From: Saprospirales bacterium
GTDB taxonomy: Bacteria; Bacteroidota; Bacteroidia; Chitinophagales; Saprospiraceae
DNA: 48,366 bases
NCBI GenBank assembly: GCA_947459365.1
Contig: CANHDG010000003.1
Span: forward strand, 1-48,366
Direction: 5' to 3'
Shown piece after piece: positions 1 through 48,366 of the stretch; position 1 is the stretch's first letter, and every line of letters begins with the position of its first letter. The notes beneath the pieces were generated by a model. It saw only the letters and a program-made list of their open reading frames with translations. It ran no database searches and was not told the DNA's origin. The position numbers were made by a program, and so were the translations under genes.

Positions 1-2107
1 ACGTTGGGTTAGAGTATGGAGTAGCATCATCTGGTGTAGTACCATCAAATTCACCACCAGCATCTGCAATGTCATCGCGTTGGATAGAGAACCAGAATTG
101 TCCTTTACCTGTGTAAACCTCGTCCCAGTCGTAAGAATCATCCTCAGCAAAGGCAACCACCGCATGCTTCAAGTTCGGTGCACCTCCAAAAAATTCGATA
201 CCGTCGTCTGAGTTAGCATATACCTCTACATACTCCAAGGTTGTACCACTACCAACTCCACCTAATGTCAAACCATTCAATTCGTTACCAGAAGCAATCT
301 GACGACCACCGTGACGAATAGAAACATACTTCAAAACACCTGAGTTGTCTGTGTTATCATTTCCACCATATTGACCACGCACTTCAGTAGAAGGAATACC
401 TTCCACATTGACAAGTCCATTACCATTTTTCTGAGTAACACCTTTACCAAGAAGTACGATACCTCCCCAAAGAGCGTTGTCTTTTGGACCCAAATCAGTA
501 GGATCACTTACATCATCTTCCTCTGCAGTGAAGATAATTGGCTCTTGCTCTGTACCATTCGCAAAAATCTTTGCGCCACGAGCAACTACCAAGGCAGATG
601 GATTCCCAACGTCAGCACGAGGGGTGAATTTCACCACTGTACCGGCTTCAATTGTAAGTGTAGCACAGCTATCTACAAAAGTTAGACCGTCAACAATGTA
701 GGTTTTATCTTTTGTCCAGGTCACATTTTCGCAAGGGAGAATGCTAGCGTCGTTCACATTGACCACATTCGGTTGAGACAAGTCTACCAAATGACCGTTA
801 CGATCCAAAGCAGTCCATCCTTCTACCCAAAGCCCTGCGGCAAATGGAGGAAAGGCTCCTTTATAGTTAACTCCTGTGAAAAATGCATCTCCAGATGGGT
901 ATGCAGCCAAATCGCTGTTTACCGCAGTGTTACCCGCTGGACGTGGATCTAACAAACCATTCTGATCACGGCTGATAGATTGAATAGCAGGATCCGCAAT
1001 GAAGTTTTTATTATCATTCAAATGGGTAACCAAAGCAGCAGCGGTTACGTCTTCTGCAGCAGAACCTACGCGGATGATACCGGTTGCAGATGCATCCAAT
1101 GTTATGTTACTTCCTATCTGCCAAAATAAGTTATTCTGTAACTTTAACTCTCCAGCCAATAACTTGGCATAAGCATCGTTCACACCAGCTGCTTTATCCT
1201 GAACCTCTAGTCCTTTACCCTTTTGAGCCAACAAAATAGAGTTGGCAATTATACCCGCTGTTCCTGCGCGCAAGTTCCAACCAATTGGATTGGAAGCTGC
1301 CGCTCCAGGTCCAGAACCAATGTGCGTCCAATTGAACAGCTTTGGATTAGAGTAAGGCGTAGCATCATCTGGAGTAGTACCATCAAATTCACCACCTGCA
1401 TCCGCAACATCATCGCGCTGGATAGAAAACCAGAACTGTCCTTTACCTGTGTAAACCTCGTCCCAGTCGTAAGAATCATCCTCGGCAAAGGCGACCACCG
1501 CATATTTCAAGTTCGGAGCACCTCCAAAAAATTCAATTCCATCGTCAGAATTGGCATATACTTCAACGTATTCCAACGTTGTTCCACTTCCTACTGCACC
1601 TAATGTCAAGCCATTTAGTTCGTTACCAGAAGCAATCTGACGACCTCCGTGGCGAATAGAAACATATTTTAATACACCTGAATTATCTGCATTATCAGTA
1701 CCACCATAAATGCCCCGAGACTCGGAGGTTGGAATACCTTCAACATTTACCTCGCTGTTACCATTTTTTTGAGTCACCCCTTTACCCAATACTACCAGAC
1801 CACCCCAAAGCGCGTTGTCTTTTGGGCCCAAGTCAGTCGGATTGTTTACATCATCTTCCTCCGCAGTGAAAATAATAGGCTCCACCACCGTTCCGGTAGC
1901 AAAAATTTTCGCACCACGGCAAATAACCAATGCAGAAGGATTTCCAACGTCAGCACGAGGGGTAAACTTAACAACTGTACCCGCCTGAATATTTAAGGTG
2001 GCTCCCTCTTCTACGTACACCACGCCGTCGCAGAGATATACTTTGTCTTTCGTCCAGTTGACAGTCTGACCAGCTTGTATATCAGCGTCCGTGACGTTTA
2101 CAATTGT
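1..2107 (-). repeat. In-register tandem duplication, period 1338 bp (446 aa), inside the secreted protein; second copy cut by the window edge
   Basis: Segments match at a constant offset of 1338 bp: 121 'cgtcccagtcgtaagaatcatcct' vs 1459; 481 'cttttggaccca' vs 1819 'cttttgggccca'; 714 'gtccag' vs 2052; window start vs 1339. Confidence 0.92.
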
Positions 2108-2170
2108 CTGGGCGCTTGCTTGAATGGCTAGTGCCCAAACAGCGACTAAGAATAGAAATAGTTTTTTCAT
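1..2170 (-). CDS. Large secreted/cell-surface protein, partial (C-terminus beyond the left edge), with tandem 446-aa repeats
   Basis: Read by hand on the minus strand from ATG at 2170: MKKLFLFLVAVWALAIQASAQTIVNVTDADIQAGQTVNWTKDKVYLCDGVVYVEEGATLNIQAGTVVKFTPRADVGNPSALV... stays open to the window edge. Signal peptide at the N-terminus. Absent from the ORF track because it has no stop in the window. Confidence 0.9.
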   Translation of the reverse strand, partial: MKKLFLFLVAVWALAIQASAQTIVNVTDADIQAGQTVNWTKDKVYLCDGVVYVEEGATLNIQAGTVVKFTPRADVGNPSALVICRGAKIFATGTVVEPIIFTAEEDDVNNPTDLGPKDNALWGGLVVLGKGVTQKNGNSEVNVEGIPTSESRGIYGGTDNADNSGVLKYVSIRHGGRQIASGNELNGLTLGAVGSGTTLEYVEVYANSDDGIEFFGGAPNLKYAVVAFAEDDSYDWDEVYTGKGQFWFSIQRDDVADAGGEFDGTTPDDATPYSNPKLFNWTHIGSGPGAAASNPIGWNLRAGTAGIIANSILLAQKGKGLEVQDKAAGVNDAYAKLLAGELKLQNNLFWQIGSNITLDASATGIIRVGSAAEDVTAAALVTHLNDNKNFIADPAIQSISRDQNGLLDPRPAGNTAVNSDLAAYPSGDAFFTGVNYKGAFPPFAAGLWVEGWTALDRNGHLVDLSQPNVVNVNDASILPCENVTWTKDKTYIVDGLTFVDSCATLTIEAGTVVKFTPRADVGNPSALVVARGAKIFANGTEQEPIIFTAEEDDVSDPTDLGPKDNALWGGIVLLGKGVTQKNGNGLVNVEGIPSTEVRGQYGGNDNTDNSGVLKYVSIRHGGRQIASGNELNGLTLGGVGSGTTLEYVEVYANSDDGIEFFGGAPNLKHAVVAFAEDDSYDWDEVYTGKGQFWFSIQRDDIADAGGEFDGTTPDDATPYSNPT

Positions 2171-2472: not shown

Positions 2473-3612
2473 CTAAATCGAGAAGAATATTCCAGCCCGC
2501 TGGAGTCGATCCTTCAAAACAGATCCAAATGCTTCTACAGGTGTAAGAACACCAAATGGGAGTGTGGAAGCATTGTCCCGTTCCACCATCGTAAATGCTG
2601 CCTCTGAGAACATCTTAGCCGTCTCGTTGTACCCAGGATCCCCTCCAGAAATAACCGTTCGGACAGCCTTGTCCCCACTCTCGCCTATGCAGACTACTTC
2701 AAAGCGAGAGCGTAATCGCATGGCCTCGTCTGGCCCAGTACCTGGAGGTGCTTGCCGAAATAACCAGGCTCGAAAAAACGAAAAACGAACCAGTAACATC
2801 GTCAACAAGACAGGAAGTACCGTCTTAACCACTTTCCAAAGCGATGACCGAAGAAAAAACTGTCCATAAGCAACTGCCTCACCATAGTCGTTCGGAAGTC
2901 GGTAGGCACTTCGCTTGACAATATGCGGATCTACAACAGGCATTGGGATTGCCCAAGCCTTCAGCTCTTTCTGATAATGTATTTTTAGGGGAACCCGAGG
3001 CGTGCTTGGATGACGAGGTAATTTTACCTTCACCGAACGTTGTTGCGTCTCCATATACAATGCGTGAATAGCCGTAGTAAAGGTTCCGCCCGAAAAACTC
3101 GCATTCGTCCTTATATAACCACGTAACGACTTTGGCTCCTCTAATGGAAGCTGCTTTGCTGTCAACCAGGCTACGTAATCTGCTGGAATACTATCAAACC
3201 CACAACAGTTAACAATACAAATACCCTTCTCTTCGGCAGCCTTCCCGTACGTTAAAAATATATCCGCAACAAAGGAGGGTTCTCCCGTTATATCCAAGTA
3301 ATGGGCTCCTTGCTCAACGCAGGCTTTCACAACCCCCTTGCCGTACCAGTTAAATGGACCAACCGCATTCATAACCACGCGTGTCTGAGCAGCCATCTGT
3401 TCCAAACTCTCCGGATTATCCACATCCGCTACTACTACGTCGGGCTGTTGTCCAACTAAAGAGGCTTTCAGCTGTTCCAATTTCTGACGGTTCCTACCCG
3501 CAATAGCCCATTGAATACCTTCCGACGCTGCCCGATCTGCTAAATAAGCAGCAATTAACTGCCCAGTAAATCCACTAGCACCAAATAATAAAATGTCGTA
3601 CTTCCGTTCCAT
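2473..3612 (-). CDS. Saccharopine dehydrogenase-like / trans-acting enoyl reductase family NAD(P)-binding protein
   Basis: 379 aa; N-terminal Rossmann motif YDILLFGASGFTGQLIAAYL, then WAIAGRNRQKLEQL and NAVGPFNWYGKGVVKACVEQGAHYLDITGE, typical of the family. Confidence 0.88.
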   Translation of the reverse strand: MERKYDILLFGASGFTGQLIAAYLADRAASEGIQWAIAGRNRQKLEQLKASLVGQQPDVVVADVDNPESLEQMAAQTRVVMNAVGPFNWYGKGVVKACVEQGAHYLDITGEPSFVADIFLTYGKAAEEKGICIVNCCGFDSIPADYVAWLTAKQLPLEEPKSLRGYIRTNASFSGGTFTTAIHALYMETQQRSVKVKLPRHPSTPRVPLKIHYQKELKAWAIPMPVVDPHIVKRSAYRLPNDYGEAVAYGQFFLRSSLWKVVKTVLPVLLTMLLVRFSFFRAWLFRQAPPGTGPDEAMRLRSRFEVVCIGESGDKAVRTVISGGDPGYNETAKMFSEAAFTMVERDNASTLPFGVLTPVEAFGSVLKDRLQRAGIFFSI

Positions 3613-48145: not shown

Positions 48146-48366
48146 TTATCGCGTGATAATTTTATCTAAACAGTGCCCTAAGTCCGAAACAAATTTCTTG
48201 ACACCAGCCCCCTCCGGAAGGTCTAACTGTATATCCAAATCGTTCGGATGAGCTGAAACCATACCCACTTTCATCCACGCCTTACTCAGCATAACCGCCC
48301 AATCCACCGCCACCACACCCCGCAGGTTAATACTAACCAACAAATCCGGAACCTCCTTTAAAAACA
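48146..48366 (-). CDS. Partial CDS, C-terminus of a DUF6913-like protein; 5' end beyond the right edge
   Basis: The frame stays open to the window edge (FLKEVPDLLVSINLRGVVAVDWAVMLSKAWMKVGMVSAHPNDLDIQLDLPEGAGVKKFVSDLGHCLDKIITR), so the track's start at 48343 is an artefact. Confidence 0.5.
   Translation of the reverse strand, partial: FLKEVPDLLVSINLRGVVAVDWAVMLSKAWMKVGMVSAHPNDLDIQLDLPEGAGVKKFVSDLGHCLDKIITR

Follow-up and report, generated by a model that had tools for sequence, protein, structure and literature searches.

A tandem-unit surface protein, probably T9SS-secreted and of the PHO regulon, encoded beside a TonB-dependent receptor in a Saprospirales bacterium

Results

Tandem units at the left edge of the window

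We analysed a window of 48,366 nucleotides, which is contig C3 of a metagenome-assembled genome (MAG) of a Saprospirales bacterium (G000; 311 contigs, 3.15 Mb, 89.7% complete, 0.03% contamination). At its left edge, an open reading frame of 723 codons runs stop-free from 2170 to 2 on the minus strand and continues past the contig end. It is the 5' part (2-2170) of a gene for a tandem-unit surface protein, the continuation of which probably lies on contig C136 (L003:6168-7796, minus strand). All features of the gene given below are on the minus strand. The first-pass annotation, made from the letters alone, had described one open frame from 2170 with a signal peptide and two copies of a 1338-bp unit without indels. 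Both descriptions were borne out. No stop lies between the units, the 1338-bp spacing of the direct repeat was detected mechanically, and unit 2 aligned gap-free with unit 1 at 255/255 codons. The signal peptide (MKKLFLFLVAVWALAIQASAQ, 2108-2170), read by eye from the translation, is of type I and has no lipobox. Unit 1 (767-2104) comprises 446 aa; its C part (unit residues 256-446, 767-1339) is of the "not last" type, common to the non-terminal units of two relatives, G012 and G003. Unit 2 is represented by its first 255 aa (2-766), in register with unit 1.

We compared the two units over all 255 codons and found 83.9% protein and 78.2% DNA identity. The units had been called near-identical from a sample of 60 nt, which we reproduced exactly (six differences, all transitions, with one amino acid change, Ile/Val); this sample is among the best-conserved stretches, and the description does not hold for the whole overlap. 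Along the overlap, the differences per 60 nt fell from 49 at the 5' end, which covers the start of the unit and the signal peptide, to 4-10 at the 3' end. The annotation had also proposed computing dN/dS between the units and had suspected duplication followed by purifying selection or gene conversion. The values were dN 0.107 and dS 1.24. Since dN/dS is 0.086, unit 2 is kept by purifying selection, and the homogenisation pattern in the relatives (see below) likewise agrees with that suspicion. An assembly duplication, which the position of the second copy at the contig edge could suggest, is refuted because the units diverge at 22% of bases, and there is next to no chance of it given that the differences carry a codon-position signature of selection and that multi-unit orthologues occur in independent genomes.

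The probable 3' end of the gene, its sorting domain and the receptor gene

Contig C136 (7798 bp) also ends in the unit, and on it the C-terminal half of the unit is followed by a T9SS type A sorting domain and the stop codon. C3 and C136 share an end-to-end overlap of 780 nt (window positions 1-780; 91.8% identity). Its outermost 127 and 109 nt match perfectly, and 61 of the 64 mismatches are at third codon positions. Compared with unit 2, the C136 unit has 99.2% aa and 91.6% nt identity and a dS of 0.46. We considered an assembly k-mer of 127 for the 127-nt identical end and dropped it, as the second identical stretch has 109 nt and another overlap, with contig C14, has 149 identical nt. That overlap is at the right end of the window, where positions 48218-48366 are identical to the start of C14; because of these identical ends, C3 and C14 are probably unjoined neighbours.

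The sorting domain, for which the annotation had recommended a search, was detected on the C136 part by PF18962 (1.3e-12) and TIGR04183 (7.7e-14). By this domain, and with C3 and C136 joined as we infer, the window gene would encode a T9SS type A cargo. The T9SS component SprA is encoded in the same genome (2223 bits). A gene for a TonB-dependent receptor (TBDR) of 978 aa, with CarboxypepD_reg, plug and barrel, lies 107 bp downstream of the C136 stop codon. A further, fragmentary family member was seen in the same genome on contig C26 (21870-22160; 43% identity, 147-aa frame).

The number of units and the proposed origin of a third

More copies to the left of the window had been anticipated. 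The C136 unit that ends in the sorting domain supports this; it may complete unit 2 or, more likely, be a third one. A third unit is absent from the assembled C3 and C136. We consider it likely that the gene has three units and that about 570 bp are missing between the contigs, because three or more units are present in the closest relatives, a complete three-unit gene (1458 aa) is present in a Saprospiraceae MAG (L053), and the trees show a matching pattern. In G012, the gene is split over two contigs: one has the signal peptide with an N part, and the other has, besides a C part, one complete unit as well as the last unit with the sorting domain. In G003, two units without a signal peptide were found, and the sequence that opens the contig (126 nt) is repeated at a distance of one unit.

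Alternatively, the gene has two units only, and the overlap of C3 and C136 represents two strains' alleles of the second unit. The 780-nt end-to-end overlap with its 99.2% protein identity is in line with this, and the orthologues that are fully assembled, in G005, G014 and G022, each contain two. However, a dS of 0.46, with identical stretches on both sides, is more than would be expected of strains in a MAG with so little contamination, both closest relatives have three units or more on contigs that are also broken inside the gene, including the recurring 126 nt of G003, and L053 is complete with three. The two-unit reading is thus unlikely.

Trees of the N part and the C part of the unit disagree. 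In the N-part tree, middle and last units are sisters within the genome of the window and within G003. The C-part tree is sorted by position, with the last units together (100/100) and the non-last units together (92/96). By these trees, the middle unit in G012 and G003 is a hybrid whose N part is that of the last unit and whose C part is that of the first, which is the expected product of unequal crossing-over near the boundary of the two parts. The relatives thus display unequal crossing-over or conversion. The tandem units would have arisen by internal duplication, and the third unit of this clade by unequal crossing-over near the N/C-part boundary; for the window gene, this step is extended from the pattern in G012 and G003.

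Distribution, fold and conserved site of the unit

A search with a unit profile found complete genes with one (n=57), two (n=13), three (n=6) and four units (n=1). The size of the units had been thought notable; one to four large repeated units recur across the family. By record titles, relatives belong to Bacteroidota, Ignavibacteria/Chlorobiota, Rhodothermia, Verrucomicrobiota, Gemmatimonadota, Latescibacterota, Zixibacteria and Acidobacteriota; others were found in Gammaproteobacteria and Alphaproteobacteria. In Bacteroidetes MAG CPBay_Spr15G08_13 (L054:4448-7486), two units are identical over 1326 bp, which may stem from conversion, from a duplication of very recent date or from the assembly. 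The same genus also has a more distant family branch, with four units at L040 (G024) and at least two plus a part at the contig end at L045 (G008); judged by similarity, these repeats look independent of the window's branch.

Searches of Pfam and NCBIfam gave no match except the sorting domain, with no Pfam family common to the units, and a search against PDB sequences gave no match to the unit. The annotation had expected a beta-helix, and AlphaFold2 predicted one for unit 1 (mean pLDDT 95.5, pTM 0.95). Foldseek found no PDB structure at E <= 0.001, only distant beta-helices (best E 1.7e-3). For a two-unit relative, two helices and a sorting domain were predicted, their mutual arrangement being without confidence. 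An acidic cluster lies in unit 1 at 1382-1546 (D187, D188, E191, D209, D210, D213, D215, E239, D241) and in unit 2 at 44-208. The first six residues are invariant in 69 family members and the other three nearly so, and all nine Asp/Glu are present in each unit of the window gene. In a simple pattern test, 43 family members had the C-terminal tail only, 24 a lipobox only, 3 both and 10 neither. Lipobox and tail are thus nearly mutually exclusive across the family.

Genes around the family

A TBDR gene on the same strand and within 450 bp of the family gene was found at 68 of 83 testable loci, half of them upstream and half downstream. Among the other neighbours that recur across phyla, phosphate genes were prominent: PhoB-like regulators (18 loci), PHO4/PitA (10), PstC-type permease (6), PstS (6) and PhoR-like kinase (5); one representative of each neighbour cluster was checked, related loci are not independent, and the PhoB-like and PhoR-like proteins score below the NCBIfam equivalog cut-offs, so that these names are approximate. 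An annotated Alteromonas plasmid has the order phoB-phoR-pstS-2OG oxygenase-three-unit family protein-TBDR-DUF3450-ExbB. In the alphaproteobacterium Indioceanicola, a two-unit member (unit-profile E 5.9e-153) is followed by TBDR-gspN-gspD-gspE. No Pho genes were seen in the operon surroundings of the closest relatives. A porin-like neighbour at 8 loci was dropped as a porin O/P, being without Pfam support. The repeat had been regarded as one common in Bacteroidota surface proteins; it is not a generic repeat and belongs to a TBDR-linked family, probably of the PHO regulon.

A candidate Pho box before the gene

A Pho-box-like site with an 11-bp direct repeat (CTTAACATTAACTTAA) is located at 2281-2296 on the minus strand, 110 bp before the ATG. 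The pattern CTTAAN6CTTAA has 11 matches in the 3.15-Mb genome, compared with 13 in a backwards control. Because the pattern itself shows no excess, the argument for a Pho box rests on the identical 16-mer and its position: only one other match is the exact 16-mer. This second copy is on contig C6, 73 bp before a PHO4 gene (pitA, PF01384) that is followed by a gene for a phosphate-selective porin O/P (PF07396). The two genes (C6:5383-8220, L172:3884-6721) stand after two successive Pho-box-like sites, and the locus is probably the core of the organism's PHO regulon.

We built a weight matrix from ten family sites and scored each locus with its own site left out, at a threshold of 10 bits or more. 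The box was present at 47/90 family operon heads versus 38/437 other genes of the same loci. When the loci that supplied the motif were excluded, the count was 37/80 versus 38/437 (Fisher p 1.7e-14), a p value that is optimistic as related loci were counted separately. Several of the strongest "controls" stand before pit, pst or PhoB-like genes. From these sequence counts, we take the box to be a putative Bacteroidota Pho box. The portions of the literature available to us held no paper evidently on such a box.

Other sites and genes of the same genome were also inspected. A good match to the box on contig C191 (CTTAATCTTTACTTAA, 3432-3447, L173:2433) is not claimed, since no gene is close behind it. 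The gene for a PstS-like protein on contig C52 has no box. The best PhoB-like regulator of the genome (C114:8797-9414, L180) scores 208.6 bits versus a cut-off of 270 bits, with a TTAA box shortly before its gene on the opposite strand.

Discussion

We propose that the window gene encodes a T9SS-secreted surface protein of two or, more likely, three units that belongs to the PHO regulon and is the extracellular partner of the downstream TBDR, a reading that we hold to be probable. In low phosphate, a PhoB-like regulator would act on the CTTAAC-N5-CTTAA box at 2281-2296 and so switch on the promoter, as the motif suggests. The signal peptide, the sorting domain and SprA point to export by Sec and T9SS and to anchoring at the surface. 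Each unit may bind, and possibly cleave, a phosphorus-containing polymer or organophosphate at the conserved acidic site, and the operon structure suggests that the product would be handed to the TBDR. The tandem units would multiply binding sites and reach.

The published proteins closest to this description are ElpS, FI/FII and LipL48. A relation of our family to them is proposed from synteny, regulation, fold and published descriptions. The gene of ElpS (Caulobacter crescentus CC0170) adjoins a TBDR gene and T2SS genes, and ElpS itself is, according to the same study, no phosphatase (PMC2996285). It resembles the window protein in the adjacent TBDR gene and in surface export and a response to phosphate starvation, both of which are predicted for the window protein, and the gene order in Indioceanicola equals the published elpS-TBDR-T2SS order. 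ElpS, at about 50 kDa, is a lipoprotein released with the help of the T2SS, whereas the window protein has no lipobox, a T9SS sorting domain and two to three units. In Flavobacterium johnsoniae, according to the part of the report available to us, two lipoprotein-TBDT pairs are strongly induced by phosphate depletion, and FI and FII (Fjoh_3856 and Fjoh_0546), each with an adjacent TBDT partner, are reported to be relatives of ElpS; no exoprotein is more abundant than FI, and FII is in the phoBR operon with IPR011050, a pectin-lyase-like fold (PMC8115612). In contrast to the window protein, they are described as lipoproteins, and that part of the report does not mention tandem units. Because it has no lipobox, the window protein is a variant, not a plain member, of the ElpS/FI-FII type of PHO-regulon surface proteins. 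The SusD/PusD lipoproteins have the same type of role, as extracellular partners of TonB-dependent transporters, but the window protein has a predicted beta-helix and no SusD Pfam domain. Foldseek also gave a weak resemblance to the beta-helices of pectate lyase and polygalacturonase (PL6, GH28). The unit is not a member of these families, as it has no Pfam match to them, its best PDB E is 1.7e-3, and the TM-scores are about 0.36 or less among the matches listed.

A metal uptake role deserves consideration. The gene of the leptospiral surface lipoprotein LipL48 shares an operon with a TBDR gene, has tonB/exbBD nearby and is controlled by PerR (PMC7567364); this published layout is like that of our family, and a Pseudoalteromonas relative is next to tonB/exbBD genes and has fhuF within a few genes. 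The window protein could thus be an iron uptake partner of the receptor, like LipL48, and not a phosphorus scavenger. LipL48 differs from it in PerR control and a link to superoxide tolerance, and we found no paper on LipL48 in Bacteroidetes. Against an iron role, the recurrent neighbours of the family include phosphate genes and no iron-uptake family, and the window gene has its promoter box in common with the pitA-porin O/P locus. In addition, phosphate-responsive loci of F. johnsoniae without an assigned function are described, in the same partial source, as tightly repressed under Fe limitation (PMC8115612). We consider the iron role improbable.

Somewhat less probable still is that the protein is a structural surface repeat or adhesin and that the receptor is an incidental neighbour. 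Adhesins often have a beta-helix, a T9SS sorting domain and variation in copy number. Yet a single unit is the rule among complete members (57 genes), adjacency to the receptor persists across phyla, and almost all members keep the acidic cluster, as does every unit of the window gene.

Phosphorus scavenging together with the receptor remains the reading that we prefer, and the work defines a unit that is absent from Pfam, models its fold with confidence, and names a conserved candidate site, a receptor partner and a candidate Bacteroidota Pho box; the family also offers a natural copy-number series of one to four units. As a broader and more tentative proposal, the unit might be a beta-helix module, so far unrecognised, that binds phosphorylated polymers or acts on them as an enzyme, occurs in many phyla and substitutes for SusD in TonB-dependent phosphorus uptake; in Bacteroidota, unequal crossing-over would then raise the number of active sites in one molecule from one to four, under a Pho box of the Bacteroidota type. 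The function of what may be a major phosphorus-scavenging surface protein is now directly testable.
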